64,000 nt of DNA from Arenicola marina (Eukaryota; Annelida; Polychaeta; Arenicolidae). Of this stretch, positions 1 to 37,985 are shown piece after piece (positions within the stretch are counted from its first letter, which is position 1; the number at the start of each line of letters is the position of its first letter). The notes below the pieces were generated by a model, which was not told the DNA's origin, ran no database searches, and was given only the letters and a program-made list of their open reading frames with translations. A program made the position numbers and the translations under genes. The stretch is taken from contig OZ025249.1 in the NCBI GenBank assembly GCA_964019135.1, forward strand, positions 1 through 64,000. Direction: 5' to 3'.

Positions 1-3000
1 CTAACCCTAACCCTAACCCTAACCCTAACCCTAACCCTAACCCTAACCCTAACCCTAACCCTAACCCTAACCCTAACCCTAACCCTAACCCTAACCCTAA
101 CCCTAACCCTAACCCTAACCCTAACCCTAACCCTAACCCTAACCCTAACCCTAACCCTAACCCTAACCCTAACCCTAACCCTAACCCTAACCCTAACCCT
201 AACCCTAACCCTAACCCTAACCCTAACCCTAACCCTAACCCTAACCCTAACCCTAACCCTAACCCTAACCCTAACCCTAACCCTAACCCTAACCCTAACC
301 CTAACCCTAACCCTAACCCTAACCCTAACCCTAACCCTAACCCTAACCCTAACCCTAACCCTAACCCTAACCCTAACCCTAACCCTAACCCTAACCCTAA
401 CCCTAACCCTAACCCTAACCCTAACCCTAACCCTAACCCTAACCCTAACCCTAACCCTAACCCTAACCCTAACCCTAACCCTAACCCTAACCCTAACCCT
501 AACCCTAACCCTAACCCTAACCCTAACCCTAACCCTAACCCTAACCCTAACCCTAACCCTAACCCTAACCCTAACCCTAACCCTAACCCTAACCCTAACC
601 CTAACCCTAACCCTAACCCTAACCCTAACCCTAACCCTAACCCTAACCCTAACCCTAACCCTAACCCTAACCCTAACCCTAACCCTAACCCTAACCCTAA
701 CCCTAACCCTAACCCTAACCCTAACCCTAACCCTAACCCTAACCCTAACCCTAACCCTAACCCTAACCCTAACCCTAACCCTAACCCTAACCCTAACCCT
801 AACCCTAACCCTAACCCTAACCCTAACCCTAACCCTAACCCTAACCCTAACCCTAACCCTAACCCTAACCCTAACCCTAACCCTAACCCTAACCCTAACC
901 CTAACCCTAACCCTAACCCTAACCCTAACCCTAACCCTAACCCTAACCCTAACCCTAACCCTAACCCTAACCCTAACCCTAACCCTAACCCTAACCCTAA
1001 CCCTAACCCTAACCCTAACCCTAACCCTAACCCTAACCCTAACCCTAACCCTAACCCTAACCCTAACCCTAACCCTAACCCTAACCCTAACCCTAACCCT
1101 AACCCTAACCCTAACCCTAACCCTAACCCTAACCCTAACCCTAACCCTAACCCTAACCCTAACCCTAACCCTAACCCTAACCCTAACCCTAACCCTAACC
1201 CTAACCCTAACCCTAACCCTAACCCTAACCCTAACCCTAACCCTAACCCTAACCCTAACCCTAACCCTAACCCTAACCCTAACCCTAACCCTAACCCTAA
1301 CCCTAACCCTAACCCTAACCCTAACCCTAACCCTAACCCTAACCCTAACCCTAACCCTAACCCTAACCCTAACCCTAACCCTAACCCTAACCCTAACCCT
1401 AACCCTAACCCTAACCCTAACCCTAACCCTAACCCTAACCCTAACCCTAACCCTAACCCTAACCCTAACCCTAACCCTAACCCTAACCCTAACCCTAACC
1501 CTAACCCTAACCCTAACCCTAACCCTAACCCTAACCCTAACCCTAACCCTAACCCTAACCCTAACCCTAACCCTAACCCTAACCCTAACCCTAACCCTAA
1601 CCCTAACCCTAACCCTAACCCTAACCCTAACCCTAACCCTAACCCTAACCCTAACCCTAACCCTAACCCTAACCCTAACCCTAACCCTAACCCTAACCCT
1701 AACCCTAACCCTAACCCTAACCCTAACCCTAACCCTAACCCTAACCCTAACCCTAACCCTAACCCTAACCCTAACCCTAACCCTAACCCTAACCCTAACC
1801 CTAACCCTAACCCTAACCCTAACCCTAACCCTAACCCTAACCCTAACCCTAACCCTAACCCTAACCCTAACCCTAACCCTAACCCTAACCCTAACCCTAA
1901 CCCTAACCCTAACCCTAACCCTAACCCTAACCCTAACCCTAACCCTAACCCTAACCCTAACCCTAACCCTAACCCTAACCCTAACCCTAACCCTAACCCT
2001 AACCCTAACCCTAACCCTAACCCTAACCCTAACCCTAACCCTAACCCTAACCCTAACCCTAACCCTAACCCTAACCCTAACCCTAACCCTAACCCTAACC
2101 CTAACCCTAACCCTAACCCTAACCCTAACCCTAACCCTAACCCTAACCCTAACCCTAACCCTAACCCTAACCCTAACCCTAACCCTAACCCTAACCCTAA
2201 CCCTAACCCTAACCCTAACCCTAACCCTAACCCTAACCCTAACCCTAACCCTAACCCTAACCCTAACCCTAACCCTAACCCTAACCCTAACCCTAACCCT
2301 AACCCTAACCCTAACCCTAACCCTAACCCTAACCCTAACCCTAACCCTAACCCTAACCCTAACCCTAACCCTAACCCTAACCCTAACCCTAACCCTAACC
2401 CTAACCCTAACCCTAACCCTAACCCTAACCCTAACCCTAACCCTAACCCTAACCCTAACCCTAACCCTAACCCTAACCCTAACCCTAACCCTAACCCTAA
2501 CCCTAACCCTAACCCTAACCCTAACCCTAACCCTAACCCTAACCCTAACCCTAACCCTAACCCTAACCCTAACCCTAACCCTAACCCTAACCCTAACCCT
2601 AACCCTAACCCTAACCCTAACCCTAACCCTAACCCTAACCCTAACCCTAACCCTAACCCTAACCCTAACCCTAACCCTAACCCTAACCCTAACCCTAACC
2701 CTAACCCTAACCCTAACCCTAACCCTAACCCTAACCCTAACCCTAACCCTAACCCTAACCCTAACCCTAACCCTAACCCTAACCCTAACCCTAACCCTAA
2801 CCCTAACCCTAACCCTAACCCTAACCCTAACCCTAACCCTAACCCTAACCCTAACCCTAACCCTAACCCTAACCCTAACCCTAACCCTAACCCTAACCCT
2901 AACCCTAACCCTAACCCTAACCCTAACCCTAACCCTAACCCTAACCCTAACCCTAACCCTAACCCTAACCCTAACCCTAACCCTAACCCTAACCCTAACC

Positions 3001-4512
3001 CTAACCCTAACCCTAACCCTAACCCTAACCCTAACCCTAACCCTAACCCTAACCCTAACCCTAACCCTAACCCTAACCCTAACCCTAACCCTAACCCTAA
3101 CCCTAACCCTAACCCTAACCCTAACCCTAACCCTAACCCTAACCCTAACCCTAACCCTAACCCTAACCCTAACCCTAACCCTAACCCTAACCCTAACCCT
3201 AACCCTAACCCTAACCCTAACCCTAACCCTAACCCTAACCCTAACCCTAACCCTAACCCTAACCCTAACCCTAACCCTAACCCTAACCCTAACCCTAACC
3301 CTAACCCTAACCCTAACCCTAACCCTAACCCTAACCCTAACCCTAACCCTAACCCTAACCCTAACCCTAACCCTAACCCTAACCCTAACCCTAACCCTAA
3401 CCCTAACCCTAACCCTAACCCTAACCCTAACCCTAACCCTAACCCTAACCCTAACCCTAACCCTAACCCTAACCCTAACCCTAACCCTAACCCTAACCCT
3501 AACCCTAACCCTAACCCTAACCCTAACCCTAACCCTAACCCTAACCCTAACCCTAACCCTAACCCTAACCCTAACCCTAACCCTAACCCTAACCCTAACC
3601 CTAACCCTAACCCTAACCCTAACCCTAACCCTAACCCTAACCCTAACCCTAACCCTAACCCTAACCCTAACCCTAACCCTAACCCTAACCCTAACCCTAA
3701 CCCTAACCCTAACCCTAACCCTAACCCTAACCCTAACCCTAACCCTAACCCTAACCCTAACCCTAACCCTAACCCCTAACCCTAACCCTAACCCTAACCC
3801 TAACCCTAACCCTAACCCTAACCCTAACCCTAACCCTAACCCTAACCCTAACCCTAACCCTAACCCTAACCCTAACCCTAACCCTAACCCTAACCCTAAC
3901 CCTAACCCTAACCCTAACCCTAACCCTAACCCTAACCCTAACCCTAACCCTAACCCTAACCCTAACCCTAACCCTAACCCTAACCCTAACCCTAACCCTA
4001 ACCCTAACCCTAACCCTAACCCTAACCCTAACCCTAACCCTAACCCTAACCCTAACCCTAACCCTAACCCTAACCCTAACCCTAACCCTAACCCTAACCC
4101 TAACCCTAACCCTAACCCTAACCCTAACCCTAACCCTAACCCTAACCCTAACCCTAACCCTAACCCTAACCCTAACCCTAACCCTAACCCTAACCCTAAC
4201 CCTAACCCTAACCCTAACCCTAACCCTAACCCTAACCCTAACCCTAACCCTAACCCTAACCCTAACCCTAACCCTAACCCTAACCCTAACCCTAACCCTA
4301 ACCCTAACCCTAACCCTAACCCTAACCCTAACCCTAACCCTAACCCTAACCCTAACCCTAACCCTAACCCTAACCCTAACCCTAACCCTAACCCTAACCC
4401 TAACCCTAACCCTAACCCTAACCCTAACCCTAACCCTAACCCCTAACCCTAACCCTAACCCTAACCCTAACCCTAACCCTAACCCTAACCCTAACCCTAA
4501 CCCTAACCCTAA
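1..4512. repeat. terminal telomere array, (CCCTAA)n
   Basis: About 750 head-to-tail copies of CCCTAA on the plus strand, which is the C-rich strand of a TTAGGG telomere whose end lies to the left. The array is almost perfect. Only two irregular units (CCCCTAA, one extra C) are seen, at about 3773-3778 and 4439-4444, both in the inner sixth of the array. It stops at 4512, where the sequence becomes unique. Confidence 0.99.
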
Positions 4513-4977
4513 TCATAAGCCTAATGGTCGTGAAATTAATTTACTGCGCGGCGTGTCATAACGTCTTCAGATGTTAGATATATAGAGAGTAATGGCTCCC
4601 ACGTGGTTCTACATGGCACGACATGGTCGGCAATGGTCGGCAATGGTTCTACGTGGCGGCGCCAGGCCAGGAATGAAATATGTGTATGGTGGAATTCGCT
4701 GCATAGTCTTAGCGCGTTATGACGCGGTGGTGCTAACCCTAATTCCGACGACGTATGCAGCGTGTAAGCACATTGCCCTAATTAGGCTACATATGCAGCG
4801 TATATGCCACCTCCCCACCCCTTATGACCCCCTAACCCATATGTGTATACATAGTCCTAATATAATACCCACCCCCCACCCCTGGTACCATATGATTAGG
4901 CGGCTACAATATCCATGAAATACTTAAGAACGAAGGATACAATGTTACATATTTATTTATTGTCATCAACAAATATT
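4513..4977. other. telomere-adjacent subtelomeric sequence, no gene
   Basis: Mostly unique sequence just inside the telomere. It holds short local duplications: ATGGTCGGCA is repeated around 4622-4645, and a block of about 40 bp containing CCTAATT followed by ATGCAGCGT occurs twice at about 4737-4808. Scattered CCCTAAT pieces look like degenerate telomere units. A 108-codon open frame crosses it but shows no protein-like composition or known motif, so I do not call a gene. Confidence 0.7.
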
Positions 4978-9400: not shown

Positions 9401-9464
9401 CCCTAACCCTAACCCTAACCCTAACCCTAACCCTAACCCTAACCCTAACCCTAACCCTAACCCT
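9401..9464. repeat. interstitial telomere tract
   Basis: About 10.5 perfect CCCTAA units in the same orientation as the terminal array, ending in CCCTAG. It lies 4.9 kb inside the telomere and follows the GGCAGCAAAGGT block directly. Confidence 0.97.
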
Positions 9465-10252
9465 AGTTTCCGTGGTTGTTGTTGTTAGTCAGTAGCATTA
9501 ATGGTAACTAATTCATCCAAAACATAGCAAAGAAAATATTCGCATTCAATCATTCATTAACTTTTGTTACCGTTTTCTTGTGTTCAAGTATGTTAACATA
9601 CAGCGAAACTATATAACGACTCTTTTCCCAAACATATTACTTAAATTAAATATATATATATTGTATTACGCACTCGGTTACTTTCTTAACAGTCTGCAAA
9701 CCCGATTTACTTCACTTGAAAAAGACAAGACCGACATTTGTTCTATCAAACGATCATGTCAATTGTGACACATGTGTAGTACGGATCACATCTATATTAT
9801 TTACAATTCATTTAATTTTCTCGTACACCGTTCGTTCAACGGAGGTGTATGTTTTTATATATCTAGCATGAACACGTTATTCATCGTTGTGTCATCTACA
9901 ATAAGTAAAATCGTATGCAAATGATTACTATCCACAGACATATGTTACAGTGAATACACACACAATACTTACAGCTTTTTACTTTTGCGGTTGACTATTG
10001 AGTACATAGATGTGACATGATATTTATTTCACACATGTTACATTAAGTATAAACTTGATGTTATGTTGAATACAAAAAGTGACATCTTTCTTCTTCGTTG
10101 TCGTTCAAATTACACGAATGTAACAAACTCGATGACGGCATGTAACTTACACAATTCTACCTTTTGGTTTCACATGTGTCCAGCCAACCAGTTAACATAT
10201 CATACGTGATGGCACTTGCGGATCAAACGTTTCATGTTCGCGATATACACAT

Positions 10253-25939: not shown

Positions 25940-27040
25940 GTTAAGACGTGATGACAGTACCTCCAGGGATGACAGGAGCACAAGCGATGACAGGACCTCC
26001 AGCAATGACATAACCTCCAGGGTTGACATGATTCCAGAGCTGATAGGACCTCCAAGGAGGACAGGACCTCCAGAGATGACAAGACCTCAAGGGATGACAA
26101 GTCCTCATGGGATAACAGGACCTTAAGTGATGACAGGACCTCCACGGAGGACAAGACCTCCAGAGATGACAGGACCTCCAGGGATGACAAGACCGCCCGG
26201 ATTACACGGGATGATATGCCCTCCAGTGATGACAAGACTTCCAAGGCCTCCAGAAATGACAGAACCTCCAAGGATGACGGGACCTCCAAGGATGACGGGA
26301 CTTCCACTAGGGATGACAGGACCTCCAGGGATGACAGGCCTCCAGGGATGACAGGACCGCCAGGATCACACGGGATGACAGGATCACACGGGATGATATG
26401 CCCTCCAGTGATGACAAGACTTCCAAGGCCTCAAGAAATGACAGAACCTCCAAGGATGACGGGACCTCCAAGGATGACGGGACTTCCACTAGGGATGACA
26501 GGACCTCCAGGGATGACAGGCCTCCAGGGATGACAGGCCTCCAGGGATGACAGGACCTCCAGGGATGACAGGCCTCCAGGGATGACAGGACCGCCAGGAT
26601 CACACGGGATGACAGGATCACACGGGATGATATGCCCTCCAGTGATGACAAGACTTCCAAGGCCTCAAGAAGTGACAGAACCTCAATGGATGACGGGACC
26701 TCCAAGGATGACGGGACTTCCACTAGGGATGACAGGACCTCCAGGGATGACAGGCCTCCAGGGATGACAGGCCTCCAGGATGACAGGACCGCCAGGGATG
26801 ACAGGACCTCCAGGGATGACAGGACCTCCAGGGATGACAGGCCTCCAGGGATGACAGGACCGCCAGGATCACACGGGATGACAGGATCACACGGGATGAT
26901 ATGCCCTCCAGTGATGACAAGACTTCCAAGGCCTCAAGAAATGACAGAACCTCCAAGGATGACGGGACCTCCATGGATGACGGGACTTCCACCAGGGATG
27001 ACAGGATGTCAAGGGATGATAGGACCCCCAAGAATGACAA
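25940..27040. repeat. 18-bp minisatellite (AGGGATGACAGGACCTCC) with larger repeat units
   Basis: Basic unit of about 18 bp (GATGACAGGACCTCCAGG), with variants ending GGCCTCC, GACCGCC, GACTTCC. A longer unit marked by GGGATGATATGCCCTCCAGT recurs at about 26209, 26391, 26625 and 26892 (steps 182, 234, 267), so blocks of 18-mers have themselves been duplicated. Open frames on both strands (up to 168 codons) follow from the period being a multiple of three. The array ends about 90 bp downstream of the RDM1 stop codon. Confidence 0.93.
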
Positions 27041-27128: not shown

Positions 27129-27248
27129 TCAGTCGTAACATAGGTTTTGGAGAATCTGTTCATTAGGTATATCCAGTTCCCGGTCCGTACCGGGAGAGAT
27201 CGGTTCTTGATCCGAATCCGCTTTAGGATCAGTTTCCAGGTGTGTCAC
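27129..27248 (-). CDS. RDM1: RDM1 last exon (acidic tail)
   Basis: Acceptor TTTTTTTTATCAG at 27249, then 39 codons and TGA. The segment is rich in Asp and Glu (LETDPKADSDQEPISPG, then DRELDIPNE), like the acidic C-terminus of vertebrate RDM1. Phase 0 matches the preceding exon. Confidence 0.7.
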   Translation of the reverse strand: MTHLETDPKADSDQEPISPGTDRELDIPNEQILQNLCYD

Positions 27249-30200
27249 CTGATAAAAAAAACCCAAAAGATGTATCTAAACATGCATAATGTGGTCCAAG
27301 TGCAAACTATCAGTCTAACATTATGGTAGTCGTCTGATCGTGGATAATACACGATTGGCTATGGTCATGAGTATGAGGCGATCACTACCTCCCATATTAC
27401 AGTGTTAAGTACTATACATATGAACACTGTTGCAATCATTAGTGCTGCTTTTGTAATCTAGCGTACAGAGATACTAACATATGAACACTACTACCATCTT
27501 TATTCTTGTTATTGTTATCTTTCATGTTTTTGACAATAATTGCAACCTTGAGGAGCGAGGCTGGCGCCACCTGCTGACGGCAGAGGCTGTCTCCCTCCAC
27601 AGTGGTGTTCACCTCCGGATACACCCGGCCATCCGCCAGCACCACCAAGACCAGGGAGCTGAAGGCATTCTGGATCGCATGTCTGTAGGCCTCTTTCTGG
27701 GCTCGGCACACCGCCACGGCCCGGGAGCTGGGGTCTGTGTGCAAACAACATTCACACAGTACAAGGAAACAGGAGGACAGCCTGCCAATATCAATCAGCC
27801 CGACAATGTCAGTGAGCCCACCACTGTCAGTCAGACGACCACTGTCAGTGAGCCCACCACTGTCAGTCAGACGACCACTGATTAGTCAGCCTACCACTGT
27901 CAGACGACCACTGTCAGTCAGGCCACCACTGTCAGTCACACGACCACTGTCAGTCAGATGACCACTGTCAGTCAGACGACCACTGTCAGTCAGACGACCA
28001 CTGTCAGTCAAACGACCACTGTCAGTCAGCCCACCACTGTCAATCAGACGACCACTGTCAGTCAGCCTACCACTGTCAGTCAGCCCAACACTGTCAGTGA
28101 GACGACCACTGTCAGTCAGCCCACCACTGTCAGTCAGACGACCACTGTCAGTCAGGCCACCACTGTCAGTCACACGACCACTGTCAGTCAGCCCACCACT
28201 GTCAGTCAGACGACCACTGTCAGTCAGCCCACCACTGTCAGTCAGACGACCACTGTCAGTCAGGCCACCACTGTCAGTCAGACGACCACTGTCAGTCAGC
28301 CCACCACTGTCAGTCAGACGACCACTGTCAGTCAGCCCACCACTGTCAATCAGACGACCACTGTCAGTCACACGACCACTGTCAGTCAGACGACCACTGT
28401 CAGTCAGCCCACCACTGTTAGTCAGCCTACCACTGTCAGTCAGCCTACCACTGTCAGTCAGCCTACAACTGTCAGTCAGCCTACCACTGTCAGTCAGACG
28501 ACCACTGTCAGTCAGACGACCCCTGTCAGTCTCGCGGCCCGGGTTCTGTGGGAAACAGCACTCAGACAGTGAGTCGGTTCCCCATATATATCATTAGACA
28601 CTTACCTGTGGCAGTGAAGGTGCGATGGTCGGTTCCCCATATATCATTGGAGACACTGACCTGTGACAGTGAACGTGCGATGGTCGGTTCCCCATATTGG
28701 AGACATTGACCTGTGACAGTGAAGGTGAGATGGTCGGCTCCCCAAATATATCATTGGAGACACTTACCTGTGGCAGTGAAGGTGCGGTGGTCGGTTCCCC
28801 AAATATATCATTGGAGACACTGACCTGTGACAGTGAAGGTGCGATGGTCGGTTCCCCATATATATCAGTGGAGGCACTTACCTGTGGCAGTGAAGGTGCG
28901 ATGGTCGGCTCCCCAAATATATAATTGGAGACACTTACCTGTGGCAGTGAAGGTGCGATGGTCGGTTCCCCATATGTATCATTGGAGACACTGACCTGTG
29001 ACAGTGAAGGTGGGCTGGTCGGTTCCCCATATTGGAGACATTGACCTGTGACAGTGAAGGTGCGATGGTGGGTTCCCCATATATATCATTAGAGACACTT
29101 ACCTGTGGCAGTGAAGGTGCGATGGTCGTTTCCCCATTTATATCATTGGAGACATTGACCTGTGACAGTGAAGGTGCGATGGTCGGTTCCCCATATATAT
29201 CATTGGAGACACTGACCTGTGACAGTGAAGGTGCAATGGTCGGTTCCCCATATATATCATTGGAGACACTTACCTGTGGCAGTGAAGGTGCGATGGTCGC
29301 TTCCCCATATATATCATTGGTGACCCTGACCTGTGACAGTGAAGGTGGGATGGTCGGTTCCCCATATATATAATTGGAGACACTGACCTGTGACAGTGAA
29401 GGTGTGATGGTCGGTTCCCCATATATATCATTGGAGACACTTATCTGTGGCAGTGAAGGTGCGATGGTCGGTTCCCCATATATATCAGTGGAGACACTGA
29501 TCTGTGACAGTGAACGTGCGATGGTCGGTTCCCCATATTGGAGACATTGACCTGTGACAGTGAAGGTGCGATCGTCGGCTCCCCAAATATATCATTGGAG
29601 ACACTTACCTGTGGCAGTGAAGGTGCGGTGGTCGGTTCCCCAAATATATCATTGGAGACACTGACCTGTGACAGTGAAGGTGCGATGGTCGGTTCCACAT
29701 ATATATCATTGGAGACACTTACCTGTGGCAGTCAAGGTGCGATGGTCGGTTCCCCATATATATCAGTGGAGGCACTTACCTGTGGCAGTGAAGGTGCGAT
29801 GGTCGGCTCCCCAAATATATAATTGGAGACACTGACCTGTGGCAGTGAAGGTGTGATGGTCGGTTCCCCAAATATATCATTGCAGACACTTACCTGTGGC
29901 AGTGAAGGTGCGATAGTCGGTTCCCCATATATATCATTGGAGACACTGACCTGTGGCAGTGAAGGTGCGATGGTCTGTTCCCTAAATATATCATTGGAGA
30001 CACTGAACTGGGGCAGTGAATATGCCAGGGTCGGTACCCCAAATATATCATTGGAGACACTGACCTGTGACAGTGAAGATGCGATGGTCGGTTCCACATA
30101 TATATCATTGGAGACACTGATCTGTGACAGTGAACGTGCGATGGTCGGTTCCCCATATTGGAGACATTGACCTGTGACAGTGAAGGTGCGATGGTCAGCT

Positions 30201-33200
30201 CCCCAAATATATCATTGGAGACACTGACCTGTGGCAGTGAAGGTGCGATGGTCGGTTCCCCACATACATCATTGGAGACATTGACTTGTGGCAGTGAAGG
30301 TGCGATGGTCGGTTACCCATATATACCATTGAAGACACTGACCTGTAGCAGTGAAGGTGCGATGGTCGGTTCCACATATTGGCGAAATTGACCTGTGACA
30401 GTGAAGGTGCGATGGTCGGTTCCCCATATATATCATTGGAGACCCTGACCTGTGGCAGTGAAGTTGCGATGGTCGGTTCCACATATATATCATTGGAGAC
30501 ACTGACCTGTGGCAGTGAAGGTGCGATGGTCGGCTCCCCAAATATATCCTTGGGGACACTTACCTGTGGCAGTGAAAGTGCGATGGTCGGTTCCCCATAT
30601 ATATCATTGGCGACATTGACCTGTGACAGTGAAGGTGCGATGGTCGGTTCCCCATATATATCATTGGAGACCCTGACCTGTGGCAGTGAAGTTGCGATGG
30701 TCGGTTCCACATATATATCATTGGAGACACTGACCTGTGGCAGTGAAGGTGCGATGGTCGGCTCCCCAAATATATCCTTGGGGACACTTACCTGTGGCAG
30801 TGAAAGTGCGATGGTCGGTTCCCCATATATATCATGGGAGACACTTACCTGTGGCAGTGAAGGTGCGATGGTCGGTTCCCCATATATATTATTGGAGACA
30901 CTGACCTGTGACAGTGAACGTGCGATGGTCGGTTCCCCATATTGCAGACATTGACCTGTGACAGTGAAGGTGCGATGGTCGGTTCCCCATATATATTATT
31001 GGAGACACTGACCTGCGGCAGTGAAGGTGCGATGGTCGGTTCCCCACATATATCATTGGAGACACTTACCTGTGACAGTGAAGGTGCGATGGTCGGTTAC
31101 CCATATATATCATTGGAAACATTGACCCGTGGCAGTAAAGGTGCGACGGTCGGCTCCCAAAATATATCATTGAAGACAATGACCTGTGGCAGTGAAGGTG
31201 CGATGGTCGGTTCCCCATTTGTAACATTGGGGATACTGACCTGTGACAGTGAAGGTGCGATGGTCGGTTCCCCATATATATCAGCGGAGACATTGACCTG
31301 TGACAGTGAAGGTGCAATGGTCGGCTCCCCAAATATATCATTGGAGACCCCGACCTGTGGCAGTGAATGTGCGATGGTCGGCTGCCCATATTGGAGACAT
31401 TGACCTGTGACAGTGAAGGTGCGATGGTCGGTTCCCCATATATATCATTGGAGACACTGACCTGTGGCAGTGAAGGTGCGATGGTCGGTTCCCCATATAC
31501 ATCATTGGGGACAGTGACCTGTGGCAGTAAAGGTGCGATGGTCGGCTCCCCAAATATATCATTGAAGACAATGACCTGTGGCAGTGAAGGTGCGATGGTC
31601 GGTTCCCCATATATATCATTGGAGACACTGACCTGTGGCAGTGAAGGTGCGATGGTCGGTTCCCCATATATATCATTGGAGACACTGACCTGTGGCAGTA
31701 AAGGTGCGATGGTCGGCTCCCCAAATATATCATTGAAGACACTGACTTGTGGCAGTGAAGGTGCGATGGTCGGTTCCCCATTTGTAACATTGGGGACACT
31801 GACCTGTGACAGTGAAGGTGCGATGGTCGGTTCCCCATATATATCATTGGAGACACTGACCTGTAGCAGTGAAGGTGCGATGGTCGATTCCCCATTTGTA
31901 ACATTGGGGACACTGACCTGTGACAGTGAAGGTGCGATGGTCGGTTCCCCATATATATCAGTGGAGACACTGACCTGTGACAGTGAAGGTGCGATGGTCG
32001 GTTCCCCATATACATCATTGGGGACAGTGACCTGTGGCAGTAAAGGTGCGATGGTCGGCTCCCCAAATATATCATTGAAGACACTGACTTGTGGCAGTGA
32101 AGGTGCGATGGTCGGTTCCCCATTTGTAACATTGGGGACACTGACCTGTGACAGTGAAGGTGCGATGGTCGGTTCCCCATATATATCATTGGAGACACTG
32201 ACCTGTAGCAGTGAAGGTGCGATGGTCGATTCCCCATTTGTAACATTGGGGACACTGACCTGTGACAGTGAACGTGCGATGGTCGGTTACCCATATATAT
32301 CAGTGGAGACACTGACCTGTGACAGTGAAGGTGCGATGGTCGGCTCCCAAAATATATCATTGGAGACCCTGACATGTGGCAGTGAACGTGCGATGGTCGG
32401 TTCCACATATATATCATTGGAGACATTAACCTGTGACAGTGAAGGTGCGATGGTCGGCTCCCCAAATATATCATTAGAGACACTGACCTGTGGCAGTGAA
32501 CGTGCGATGGTCGGTTCCCTAAATATATCATTGGAGACACTTACCTGTGGCAGTGAAGGTGCGATGGTCGGTTCCCCAAAGATATCATTGGAGACACTGA
32601 CCTGTGGCAGTGAAGATGCGATGGTCGGTTCCCTAAATATATCATTGGAGACACTTACCTGTGGCAGTGAAGGTGCGATGGTCGGTTCCCCAAAGATATC
32701 ATTGGAGACACTGACCTGTGGCAGTGAAGGTGCGACGGTCGGTTCCCCATTTGTAACATTGGGGACACTGACCTGTGACAGTGAAGGTGCGATGGTCGGC
32801 TCCCCATATATATCATTGGAGACACTGACCTGTGGCAGTGAAGGTGCGATGGTCGGTTCCCCATATATATCATTGGAGACATTGACATGTGGCAGTGAAG
32901 GTGCGATGGTCGGTTCCCCAAATATATCATTGGAGACACTGACCTGTGGCAGTGAAGGTGCGATGGTCGGTTCCCCATTTGTAACATTGGGGACACTGAC
33001 CTGTGACAGTGAAGGTGCGATGGTCGGTTCCCCATATATATCATTGGAGACACTGACCTGTGGCAGTGAAGGTGCGATGGTCGGTTCCCCATATACATCA
33101 TTGGGGACACTGACCTGTGGCAGTGAAGGTGCGATGGTCGGCTCCCCAAATATATCATTGAAGACAATGACTTGTGGCAGTGAAGGTGCGATGGTCGGTT

Positions 33201-36200
33201 CCCCATATATATCATTGGAGACATTGACATGTGGCAGTGAAGGTGCGATGGTCGGTTCCCCAAATATATCATTGGAGACACTGACCTGTGGCAGTGAAGG
33301 TGCGATGGTCGGTTCCCCATTTGTAACATTGGGGACACTGACCTGTGACAGTGAAGGTGCGATGGTCGGTTCCCCATATATATCATTGGAGACACTGACC
33401 TGTGGCAGTGAAGGTGCGATGGTCGGTTCCCCATATACATCATTGGGGACACTGACCTGTGGCAGTGAAGGTGCGATGGTCGGCTCCCCAAATATATCAT
33501 TGAAGACAATGACTTGTGGCAGTGAAGGTGCGATGGTCGGTTCCACATATATATCATTGGAGACACTGACCTGTAGCAGTGAAGGTGCGATGGTCGATTC
33601 CCCATTTGTAACATTGGGGACACTGACCTGTGACAGTGAACGTGCGATGGTCGGTTACCCATATATATCATTGGAGACATTGACCTGTGACAGTGAAGGT
33701 GCGATGGTCGGCTCCCCAAATATATCATTAGAGACACTGACCTGTGGCAGTGAAGGTGCGATGGTCGGTTCCCCAAATATATCATTGGAGACACTTACCT
33801 GTGGCAGTGAAGATGCGATGGTCGGTTCCCTAAATATATGATTGGAGACACTGACCTGTGGCAGTGAAAATGCCATGGTCGGTTCCCCAAAGATATCATT
33901 GGAGACCCTGACCTGTGGCAGTGAAGGTGCGATGGTCGGTTCCCCATATATATCATTGGAGACACTGACCTGTGGCAGTGAAGGTGCGATGGTCGGTTCC
34001 CCATATATATCATTGGAGACACTGACCTGTGACAGTGAAGGTGCGATGGTCAGTTTCCCAAATATATCATTTGAGACACTGATCTGTGGCAGTAAAGTTG
34101 CGATGGTCGGTTCCGCATATATATATCATTGGAGACACTGACCTGTGGCAGTGAAGGTGCGATGGTCGGTTCCCCAGCCCTCACACTTAAGGCCACGGAG
34201 CGGCAGCTTAAGTAAAACTCCAGCCACGTAATTCACTTGATTCTTGTCCTCCATAATTTCCTGGGAATTCTGAAGTGTTATAATTAGGACTCATACAGAC
34301 ATAATATATACACCTATAATCTGTTTTTCATAATGAAACAGAATGTATTTATACGATCCCGAGTACGTAAAACATTCTGCAGTACATTTGGTGATGCAGC
34401 GATTAAAATATACATTATATTGCTTTTAAATCATACATTAATTCCTCAACTTTTAACAAATAAATGTTCTGAAGGTCACATCGGGACGACAATGCATGTT
34501 GTGCGCAGCTCATTGTGTTTACAGGAAGGATATTTATTGATCTCGTCATTTAGTTATTTATTTGAACTATCGTACAGTAAAACTCGAGACACGATAATAA
34601 CAAACAGAAAAATAATTTGACACCTTATTTATAACAATGAAAAATAATTTGCATCTAGTGTTCTTTGGGTATTGCTGAGTGCTTTTCCTAAAATGTGTGA
34701 AGAAACAAGCTGTTGTTTACCGAGAAGATGTTTTTTAAGGGATCATCTGTTATCACCCATAGCACATTCACTAGTACGTTATCATTACCAAGAACATCCG
34801 CTGAGGACCATTCTGTTATTAATCAAACAATGTACGGGAGTTTATTGCAGAAAACGGCCACTGGCCAAGGTGCACACATGATACAATTTTTTTTGCGCGC
34901 TCATTGCGCGTAAGCAATAGGACACATATAATTAACAAAAAAACTCAGTTAGCCACCCTGAATTTAAACATATGATAAGCAAAAAAAAAGAAAAAAAAGA
35001 GGAGCCAATGTCGATATCATTTTGCTGTCAGTTTAACCTTATTTGACATCGCAGAGGAACATGATTTGATTCGGCAAAGTCAAGTATTTCAAAATCCACA
35101 AAAGCCTCGAATAAGGGCGTGGAACCTATCATGTAATCTACCACACTGCTACTATTATATGTACAACATGTAACTTATTTCTTGATCCTCTAGTGGATCC
35201 CTCGCTGCGCCGTATGTGCACAATCGTCCTGACATATCACCCAAGCACCCCTCCACGTCATTCCAAGAATAGACCGTGTTGTCGAGAGTCAGCTTGTCAT
35301 AACGGAGCCTACCGCTGTAGATGCGTTTCTTGGCGTCCGCTGCGATTTTACCGAGATTACGTCTTGCAGGTCGAACTCCGGCGCTGTAGTCCTCTTTAAA
35401 GTTAACCGTACTTCTCTTTTCAAGTTTTTCCCACTCCATTCTCATTACTTTTGCTTCGTCCTTGAATTGAGAATTTTACGACGACTGGTCTTCCATTTGT
35501 CGTCCCGTTTGCGTCCCAGGCAAAGTCTCTCTGTGCTGATCTTCGTATCCATTTCAGCGCGTAATTCCAGCTTCGAGCCAATGCAGACGTGCACCAGCTC
35601 TTCACTAGCCTGTCTGCTCTCTTGGCCTTCCTTCTCGGCAAGACCATAGACTAGGGGGGTGGCTTCTCCAGAACTTCCATACTGACCACTTGCTGTCTGA
35701 GCTTTCTTTTGTCTTCTTTGATGTTCTGTTTCACTTGTTTCACTGTCCCTACTTGATACTTCAGCTACAGAGTGTCTTCTTGATGTCACTGTCACCTTTA
35801 ATAATTCCCATCGATTGTTGATTGACGAGGATCATAACCTTGAGACAGCAAGACTAGATTACGTACTGCAGGCCTGTGATTGACCCTTCACAACAAAATA
35901 GGGATAAAGTAGAGCTACTTGTGCAAGAAAAGTGGGGGGAAATTCAGGGAAACGTAGGGACTCCAGGAAAGAAGTAAGACATTTTGATGAAACTGAGCCA
36001 CGCCTTTTCTGCATATTTACTGAGATGACTTTTACTACAGGATAAATCATATCACTTTGAGACTAGGCCATATAGCATGCATTCCATCTGAAAAAGTAGA
36101 AAAGTAGGGATCAATCACAGGTCTGTTACTCACTTTTTCTAGTCAGCTGTTATTACCTGAAGGATGTCTGTTGAGTATCCGTTGAAGCCGAGGTAGTAGT

Positions 36201-37985
36201 TGACAAGGTCGTGACACTTGGAGACGTACAGCGGCTTCCGTGCTGTTGAGTTTTGTCTCCGCTTCGCAAATTTAATCTAAAACCAGTGAAAGAAATATAG
36301 TATTGATAGTACAAATGAATCCGAGCTAGTCTGCACTGTCCGTCAGCTCACCACCGCAACCAGTCGACCCATCATCGGCCCACCATGGCCAACCCCTCAA
36401 CCCACCATCGCCAACCCGTCAATCCACCATCGCCAACCCGTCGGCCCACCATCGCCACCAGTCTGACCACCATCGCAACCCGTCGGCCCACCATCGCCAA
36501 CCCGTCGGACCACCATCGCCAACCCGTCGGACCACCATCGCCAACCCGTCGGACCACCATCGCCAACCCGTCGGACCACCATCGCCAACCCGTCGGACCA
36601 CCATCGCCAACCCGTCAATCCACCATCGCCAACCCGTCGGCCCACCATCGCCACCAGTCTGACCACCATCGCAACCCGTCGGCCCACCATCGCCAACCCG
36701 TCGGACCACCATCGCAACCCGTCGGCTCACCATCGCCAACCCGTCGGACCACCATCGCCAACCCGTCGGACCACCATCGCCAACCCGTCGGCCCACCATC
36801 GCCAACCCGTCGGACCATCATCGCCAACCCGTCGGACCACCATCGCCAACCCGTCGGACCACCATCGCCAACCCGTCGGACCACCATCGCCAACCCGTCG
36901 GACCACCATCGCCAACCCGTCGGCACACCATCGCCAAAACGCAAACCCGTCGGACTACCATCGCCAAAACGCAAATCCGTCGATCCACTATCGCTAAAAC
37001 GCTAACCCGTCGGACTACCATCGCCAACCCGTCGATCCACCATCGCCAAAACGCAAATCCGTCGATCCACTATCGCTAAAACGCCAACCCGTCGGATTAC
37101 CATTCCCAACACATCGGACTACGAGTCGGCCCACACACTTCCCATCGGCCAACCCGTCGGCCCACCCAATTCCCATCGGCCAACCCGTCGCACCACCCAC
37201 TACCCATCGGCCAACCCGTCGGCCCACCCACTTCCCATCGGCCACTCGTCGGCCCATCCTCTTCCCATCGGCCAACCCGTCGGCCCACCCACTTTCCATG
37301 TGCCAACCAGTCGGCCCACCCACTTCCCATCGGCCAACCTGTCGGCCCATCCACTTCCCATTGGCCCACCCGTCGGCCCACCTGTCGGCCCACCCACTTC
37401 CCATCGGCCAACCAGTCGGATCACCTACTTCCCATCGGTCAACCCGCCGGATCACCCACTTCCCATCGGCCAACCCGTCGGACCACCCACTTCCGATCGG
37501 CCAACCAGTCGGACCACCGACTTCCCATCGGCCACCCGTAGGCCAATATTCTGCACAACATCGCCCACCATCGGCACCTTGTCGGCCCACCATCGTCAAC
37601 CCGTTGGCCCAATATCCTAAGCCAAGTAATATTGCTATCACAACAAAATACTTTAGCACTAACAGTATCCAAACTGTAATAAATCACTTTATATCATTTC
37701 AATATTAGACAAAATCAGTTTAGCACGAATAAGTGGAAATCTGTTATATGGTAATCCAAAACTTACTTGATGGAAAAAAGGAATTATCATGACCACTTCT
37801 GTACATGGGCCACATTGGGTAACACAGGAAGGGTAAGAATGAAAATATTAAGTGACCTTTAGCAGCTGACCGTTAAACACTAATCGTCCTGTCACATCTC
37901 GGATAGCTTCAGCAGCAGCACGACAGGAATAAAACTTGACAAAGGCATAATGAGAACCCGGTCTCTCCGTCTCCCAATATTCTCT
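27129..37985 (-). CDS. RDM1: RDM1, RAD52 motif-containing protein 1, five exons, 5' end missing
   Basis: Exons, 5' to 3': 37857-37985, 36157-36276, 34143-34269, 27547-27734, 27129-27248. Together they give 684 nt, 227 codons and a TGA, with phases 0, 0, 1 and 0 all matching. In order the protein shows the second half of an RRM (HYAFVKFYSCRAAAEAIRD), the RAD52-like motif (VSKCHDLVNYYLGFNGYS), a hydrophobic strand segment (VAGVLLKLPLRGLKCEG), an amphipathic region (AVAVCRAQKEAYRHAIQ, then LVLVVLADG), and an acidic tail. This is the domain order and spacing of vertebrate RDM1 (about 285 residues), a nucleic-acid-binding protein linked to recombination and the response to DNA cross-links. The first 55-60 residues are missing and must lie to the right of 37985, inside or beyond the 44-bp satellite. 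Introns hold large minisatellites. Transcription runs toward the telomere. Weak points are two non-consensus donors (GTCACT at 37856, GTTGCA at 27546). Confidence 0.85.
27442..27546. other. short intron of RDM1 (27249-27546), read-through part
   Basis: The exon frame stays open through this part of the intron to a TAA at 27439-27441, encoding an Asn/Lys-rich stretch. Retention of the intron would therefore give a protein with a different, shorter tail rather than an immediate stop. Confidence 0.4.
27547..27734 (-). CDS. RDM1: RDM1 exon with the conserved C-terminal helix and strand
   Basis: Acceptor TGTTTGCACACAG precedes 188 nt. The first two bases complete an Asp codon with the G that ends exon 34143-34269. 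Conserved core: CRAQKEAYRHAIQNAFSSL followed by VLVVLADGRVYPE. The donor is AAG|GTTGCA; without splicing the frame would run on to a stop at 27439, giving a different tail. Confidence 0.8.
27805..28530. repeat. 18-bp minisatellite (GTCAGTCAGACGACCACT)
   Basis: About 40 units of 18 bp in the RDM1 intron, alternating GTCAGTCAGACGACCACT and GTCAGTCAGCCCACCACT. Frames read VSQTTT/VSQPTT on plus and LTDSGR/LTDSGG on minus and stay open because the period is divisible by three. The array ends about 40 bp before the acceptor of exon 27547-27734 and is bounded on its other side by a decayed second copy of that acceptor. Confidence 0.95.
28535..28574 (-). repeat. decayed duplicate of the RDM1 3' splice site
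   Basis: Read on the minus strand: ACTGTCTGAGTGCTGTTTCC, then CACAG|AACCCGGGCCGCG. The genuine site at 27712-27766 reads ACTGTGTGAATGTTGTTTGC, then ACACAG|AC..CCCGGGCCGTG. The order of polypyrimidine tract, CACAG and CCCGGGCCG is kept, with a deletion of about seven bases after the AG. A stop codon follows within six codons in the phase used by the real exon. Confidence 0.6.
28575..34163 (-). repeat. 57-bp array built from an RDM1 exon end plus 5' splice site
   Basis: About 98 units of 57 bp. On the minus strand each unit starts TGGGGAACCGACCATCGCAC, continues through TTCACTGCCACAG, then GTCAGT or GTAAGT and TGTCTCCAATGATATATA. The first 34 bases are identical to the last 34 of RDM1 exon 34143-34269; the other 23 are intron. 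Thus each unit carries CAG|GTCAGT or the consensus CAG|GTAAGT. Some units are shortened by about seven bases (CCCCATATTGGAGAC on the plus strand) and a subfamily has CCATTTGTAACATTGGGG. In the exon phase each unit meets TGA after 11 codons past the donor. The 824-codon plus frame is antisense to this and is not a gene. Confidence 0.95.
34143..34269 (-). CDS. RDM1: RDM1 exon adjoining the 57-bp array
   Basis: Acceptor CACTTCAG at 34270, 127 nt, donor CACAG|GTCAGT. It encodes NSQEIMEDKNQVNYVAG, then VLLKLPLRGLKCEGWG, then TDHRTFTAT and a split codon. The middle corresponds to the hydrophobic strand after the RAD52 motif in RDM1. The last 34 bases are the seed of the 57-bp array. Confidence 0.8.
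34270..35150. other. RDM1 intron, AT-rich, no gene seen
   Basis: Plus-strand frames at 34333-34620 and 34672-34913 have no motif I recognise. GCGCGCTCATTGCGCG at about 34895-34910 is a short inverted repeat. Confidence 0.5.
35163..35795 (-). pseudogene. LINE ORF1-like relic (L1 ORF1p/transposase_22 type)
   Basis: Frames on the minus strand together resemble the C-terminal half of L1-type ORF1 proteins: VYGLAEKEGQESRQASEEL, then KISTERLCLGRKRDD, then GRPVVVKFSIQGRSK, then STVNFKEDYSAGVRPARRNL and SGRLRYDKLTLDNTVYSW. This is the usual order of the RNA-recognition part and the C-terminal domain (hRlGrk, RPvvVKF, EDYs.. vR.aRR.L, LRYDKL). The pieces sit in different frames (breaks near 35540 and 35450), so it is dead. 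No reverse transcriptase is present. It lies in an RDM1 intron in the same orientation as the gene. Confidence 0.6.
35867..36128. mobile_element. candidate MITE with about 20-bp terminal inverted repeats
   Basis: CAGGCCTGTGATTGACCCTT at the left end and the reverse complement of CAGACCTGTGATTGATCCCT at the right end (17 of 20 match). Length is about 262 bp with no coding capacity. TACT occurs just outside each end and could be a target-site duplication. It lies in the same intron as the LINE relic, 29 bp from RDM1 exon 36157-36276. Confidence 0.45.
36157..36276 (-). CDS. RDM1: RDM1 exon with the RAD52-like motif
   Basis: Acceptor CTGGTTTTAG, 120 nt, donor CAG|GTAATA, phase 0 at both ends. 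It encodes IKFAKRRQNSTARKPLY followed by VSKCHDLVNYYLGFNGYS and TDILQ. The SKC-x-(E/D)-L-x-NYY-x-GFNG signature is the diagnostic motif of RDM1. Confidence 0.88.
36370..37115. repeat. 22-bp minisatellite in an RDM1 intron
   Basis: About 30 units of CACCATCGCCAACCCGTCGG plus two bases, with 19-bp variants lacking CCA and a right-hand part in which units read CGCCAAAACGCAAACCCGTC. Open frames on both strands have a 22-residue period because three units equal 66 bp. Confidence 0.93.
37116..37620. repeat. about 31-bp minisatellite related to the 22-bp array
   Basis: Units share GGCCAACCCGTCGGCCCACC with the neighbouring array but add CACTTCCCATC, giving about 31 bp and about 15 copies. The array ends in units of the first type near 37560-37615, so the two arrays appear to derive from one another. 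Confidence 0.88.
37857..37985 (-). CDS. RDM1: RDM1 exon with the second half of the RRM
   Basis: Acceptor TGCTCATTGCAG, 129 nt, phase 0. It encodes REYWETERPGSHYAFVKFYS, then CRAAAEAIRDVTGRLVFNGQ and LLK; HYAFVKFYS is the RNP1-like strand of the RDM1 RRM. The donor AAAG|GTCACT is weak. Residues before Arg-Glu-Tyr must come from exons to the right. Confidence 0.8.

Follow-up and report, generated by a model that had tools for sequence, protein, structure and literature searches.

Intron 5 of the RDM1 gene of the annelid Arenicola marina contains a 57-bp minisatellite that was probably seeded on the exon 5/intron 5 junction itself. The host gene is intact and subtelomeric; its first donor is likely the one in use, and the additional donors within the array would be tolerated passengers. 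The array lies on the minus strand at 28573-34176 of the window (the analyzed stretch of 64,000 nucleotides at the start of contig OZ025249.1) and comprises 99.2 copies with 88% matches according to TRF. Wrap-around alignment to the unit resolves 99 full junction-bearing units, i.e., the authentic one, which comes first and starts at 34175, and 98 copies. An array of about 98 splice-junction copies with a period of 57, as proposed in an earlier note on this DNA, is thus real. Most units (89 of 99) are 57 bp long, the others measuring 50 bp (seven units), 55 bp (two units), and 59 bp (one unit). The repeat unit corresponds to the final 33-34 nt of exon 5 followed by the initial 23-24 nt of intron 5; the division into exactly 34 and 23 nt given earlier holds when the T at 34176 is included, and otherwise the wider ranges apply.

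RDM1, a gene of the DNA-repair type, is encoded on the minus strand between C2:69819 and 27129 and consists of seven exons, with a coding sequence of 873 nt (290 codons) that contains no internal stop; all six introns have GT-AG boundaries. Exon 1 (C2:69715-69819) and exon 2 (C2:66719-66811) are located outside the window and are followed on the same strand by exon 3 (37857-37985), exon 4 (36157-36276), exon 5 (34143-34260), exon 6 (27547-27734, 188 nt, acceptor 27735/27734), and exon 7, which carries the stop codon (27129-27248). Exon 5 is 118 nt long, ends in phase 1, and begins at the acceptor tcccag|GAAATT, which makes it nine bases shorter than the exon previously placed at 34143-34269. 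The predicted protein matches PF25517 (RDM1 DSRM) over residues 127-216 with a Pfam score of 46.1 bits (cut-off 26.5), and the codon at the exon 5/6 junction, residue 189, falls within this match. A protein search with exons 3-7 gave four hits, all from gastropods (35-41% identity), three of which are named RAD52 motif-containing protein 1-like. As the junction is ungapped in the alignments to all four gastropod proteins, the end of exon 5 is native and consists of old coding sequence that gave rise to the array. Together, the intact gene model, the Pfam domain, and the ungapped orthologue alignment bear out the proposal that a genuine RDM1 exon/intron junction underlies the array. A decaying locus, in which RDM1 would be dispensable in this organism and the array would be a sign of relaxed constraint, could account for the subtelomeric position, the large arrays in three RDM1 introns, and a gene span of 42.7 kb for 873 nt of coding sequence, but the frame is complete, the splice sites are canonical throughout, and the Pfam score exceeds its cut-off; this reading is very improbable.

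The subtelomeric position follows from a terminal telomere repeat, (CTAACC)n, which occupies the first 4.5 kb of the window (1-4524); a short interstitial (CCCTAA)n is present at 9401-9465. Several other minisatellites are found in and around the gene. An 18-bp based minisatellite, which also shows longer periods of higher order, is located directly downstream of the stop codon (25950-27039), 22-bp and 31-bp minisatellites are present in intron 3 (36375-37611), and a 44-bp minisatellite of about 27.8 kb constitutes most of intron 2 (38172-64000 in the window and 1-1940 in stretch L009).

Intron 5 is 6408 nt long, and most of what remains of it outside the 57-bp array is taken up by an 18-bp minisatellite of about 40 copies (TRF, 27807-28531, minus strand), which can be read through in one minus-strand frame (as GRLTDS repeats) and, judging from the phase of exon 5, is apparently not coding. 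On the distal side of the 57-bp array, immediately past it, lies a single partial, gapped copy of the exon 6 acceptor region (about 28535-28570, minus strand), with a local score of 32, compared with 25 for the best of 500 shuffles and 21 for the next best among 883 gene-region tiles. Neither AATAAA nor ATTAAA occurs within intron 5. Among the 12 RDM1 junctions, the exon 5 donor is the only one with ungapped copies (at least 70% of 40 nt) within C2:26500-71000, where it has 98. Coding readings of the two intron 5 arrays were considered and rejected. The open frame of the 57-bp unit differs from the frame of exon 5, and it is shifted by seven of the 99 units, which lack 7 bp; the 18-bp array does have an open frame, but a splice from exon 5 into the acceptor-like copy near 28545 would run into a TGA after six codons, as judged by eye.

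The copies show a mean identity of 0.93 to the authentic unit and of 0.88 among themselves. Distinct sequences account for 73 of the 98 copies, and runs of three to five units recur exactly, the longest comprising five units and recurring 342 bp apart; the combination of exact repeated runs with so many distinct sequences is the pattern of a minisatellite that is turning over. A 27-base core of the array, searched with at most one mismatch across the genome (867 Mb), was found in at least 79 places, all of them on the minus strand inside the RDM1 array, such counts being lower bounds for repeats, while the reversed core, used as a control, was found in none. The seed of the array was probably a short tandem duplication over the exon 5 donor (33-34 nt of exon and 23-24 nt of intron), which slippage or unequal exchange would have expanded to 98 extra copies, accompanied by local block duplications. 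Exon 5 would still be joined from its own first donor (34143/34142) to the exon 6 acceptor (27735/27734), the whole array leaving as intron. The extra donors would owe their presence to the donor in the seed, and they would be tolerated as passengers and not kept by selection.

The reading frame sets a limit on donor choice. If any donor past the authentic one is used, an in-frame TGA is met soon past exon 5 (34128-34126, minus strand), as the earlier note had expected; therefore, only the first donor of the array yields the full protein, provided that the remaining intron is spliced out in a single step. A human minisatellite reportedly described in 1995 in the gene 6-16 (IFI6) is said to give multiple splice donors, with a 12-bp unit and several donors used in frame. 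The RDM1 minisatellite likewise sits on a splice donor and its repeats carry donors, whereas extension into it meets the stop, in contrast to the open frame reported for 6-16.

Conservation of the donor sequence is less complete than had been claimed. The authentic 9-mer CAGGTCAGT is present in 46 of the 98 copies and CAGGTAAGT in a further 17, so that one of the two donors (CAG|GTCAGT or CAG|GTAAGT) is kept in 63 copies and not in every unit; GT is kept in 93 copies and CAGGT in 84. The duplex energy with the 5' end of U1 is -10.4 kcal/mol for the authentic donor and -14.5 kcal/mol for the strongest copy. U1 pairing equals or exceeds that of the authentic donor in 62 of the 98 copies and exceeds it in 17, so that passive tolerance needs a reason for the first donor winning. 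The stronger pairing of these 17 copies and the stop behind any later donor would also suit a regulatory poison device, in which later donors divert part of the transcripts to the TGA at 34128-34126 and the length of the array sets RDM1 output. Such a device is unlikely in view of the donors themselves: their strength is not conserved, the +5 G is missing from 22 of the 99 units, and the copy adjoining exon 5 has lost its GT (CAG|ATCAGT), although other columns of this unit have diverged as well.

Mean divergence of the copies is 0.070 in the donor 9-mer, 0.072 in the other intronic part, and 0.046 in the exonic part, and the block of nine donor columns ranks 41st among the 57 circular blocks of this size (1 being the most conserved). 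Conservation of the donor thus does not exceed that of the remaining unit, which gives the copies the appearance of passengers, and the lack of extra donor conservation appears to speak against a selected role of the units as micro-exons or recursive sites, both of which had been suggested for them. Within the exonic part, third codon positions are no more variable than the other positions, so the exon frame in the copies is not under constraint. Predicted RNA hairpins over the donor gave nothing notable, with z values of -1.13 and -0.49 for single units and +0.63 for the authentic junction.

Recursive splicing would preserve the mRNA by another route: exon 5 would be joined to a unit, the donor would be restored, and the intron would be removed stepwise. 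The unit ends bear a pyrimidine-leaning stretch followed by CAG|GT, with a mean pyrimidine share of 0.69 (range 0.65-0.75) in the 20 nt upstream of CAG and with the GT and CAGGT counts given above (93 and 84 of 98), and paired donor and acceptor sites are described, in the available text, as arising from tandem duplication of segments that bear AGGT (PMC3443670). On the other side, the junction shows no extra conservation in the copies and the intron measures just 6408 nt, and this route appears improbable. The most likely mechanism is the passive one, in which the first donor would be used and the remainder removed with the intron; the somewhat lower divergence of exonic columns relative to intronic ones counts against it.

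Arrays of this kind have relatives. Minisatellite-like tandem duplications of exon-intron boundaries, called 'mirages', are known from amphioxus Adh3 and globin genes (PMC3087553, PMC3902484), and TnC and PGBD5 have been added as boundary-repeat genes (PMC3902484). According to the available parts of these reports, unit lengths are 10-72 bp in Adh3 and 150-160 bp in the globins, copy numbers are six and three units in the BflGb6 haplotypes and three in PGBD5, and normal splicing and length instability were observed for some mirages (PMC3087553, PMC3902484). The RDM1 array has the features of an exon-boundary minisatellite: its unit spans an authentic exon-intron boundary, units of minisatellite size are arranged head to tail, and the 873-nt frame of the host stays open once the array leaves with the intron. 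As in the amphioxus cases, so far as the available accounts describe them, tandem units hold the authentic boundary in a working gene and many keep splice signals, and the 57-bp unit is within or between the published sizes. The differences concern the host, which is an annelid and not a lancelet, the number of copies (98 extra, against six and three units in the BflGb6 haplotypes), and the 17 copies whose pairing with U1 is stronger than that of the authentic donor.

Human genes in segmental duplications also carry internal tandem repeats at exon boundaries, which can change splicing or form introns and, in the accessible text, consist on average of four 30-bp units (PMC2812944). The RDM1 array is likewise a minisatellite at an exon-intron boundary, but its unit is 57 bp long, it has 98 extra copies, and its host is not known to be duplicated. 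Among annelids, earthworm metallothionein genes contain minisatellites in their first intron with monomers averaging 178-181 bp (PMC12783039); both cases represent a large intronic minisatellite in an annelid gene, whereas the RDM1 unit contains a splice junction and none is mentioned for the earthworm monomers in the available part of that report. No annelid donor array appeared among the literature matches listed. The earlier suggestion that no such case had been described on this scale therefore fails as to kind, given amphioxus Adh3, globin, TnC, and PGBD5 and the human minisatellite, but may hold as to scale, since 98 copies are far above the three to six of BflGb6 and PGBD5, the numbers compared from the accessible text.

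The genome in which the array resides is extremely rich in minisatellites: arrays with a period of at least 10 cover 30.3% of the 200 kb sampled (L015-L034, 20 stretches of 10 kb each, placed at round coordinates of five contigs). The COX1 gene on contig C762, whose frame is open under the invertebrate mitochondrial code, shows 91% identity to Pilargis wolfi and 88-90% to a Phyllodocida cluster and several nereidids, other annelids following closely, among the best 120 of 7999 matches; by this marker the DNA is that of an annelid, probably a phyllodocidan, and an amphioxus origin was rejected. A triple CAGGTNAGT pattern with gaps of 20-50 has 10,465 + 12,766 = 23,231 matches in the whole genome, i.e., 4.2-fold more than the 2,694 + 2,844 = 5,538 of the reversed pattern; these figures are matches and not arrays, and a few large arrays could dominate them. 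The matches listed (C1 up to 2.12 Mb) comprise about 100 triple-donor places grouped in five or six arrays, the larger of which, among the same matches, have spacings of 34, 39, and 53 bp. CAGG-like motifs may be favored in minisatellites. Among 84 non-redundant arrays drawn from the 20 samples, stretch L036, and C2:1-124000, at least three CAGGTNAGT are present in one, the RDM1 array itself, and at least three reversed motifs in two. Evidence on the genome-wide frequency of junction arrays is consequently mixed, with an excess of matches on the one hand and none in the 84 arrays on the other. An array of 39-bp units is present at C1:606015-612276, where most of the matched units contain a perfect CAGGTAAGT. 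In one chaperonin gene stretch (L036), a 379-bp repeat of 2.6 copies (3669-4637) lies between two exon matches and touches neither.

A broader reading, that minisatellites repeatedly grew on splice donors throughout this genome and that the spliceosome routinely passes over tens of copies that match or surpass the true site beside them, RDM1 being one example, can be advanced only tentatively and is rather doubtful. As part of that reading, a rough extrapolation from the triple-pattern matches would put the number of donor arrays in the genome at perhaps a thousand or more.

What is new here is the annelid host, the 98 copies, and the minisatellite-rich genome, the kind of array being already known from lancelets. 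With the RDM1 array, the range of exon-boundary minisatellites, which includes lancelets and certain human genes, comes to cover an annelid, and the reading frame of the host gene permits no donor of the array other than the first. With near-identical competitors in a 57-nt tandem unit, 17 of them with better U1 pairing, the RDM1 array constitutes a natural test of splice-site choice and prompts one to ask how the cell manages to select the correct site. If the genome-wide excess of triple-donor matches is junction-seeded, the species would offer many natural tests of this kind, along with possible raw material from which introns could be gained through tandem duplication.
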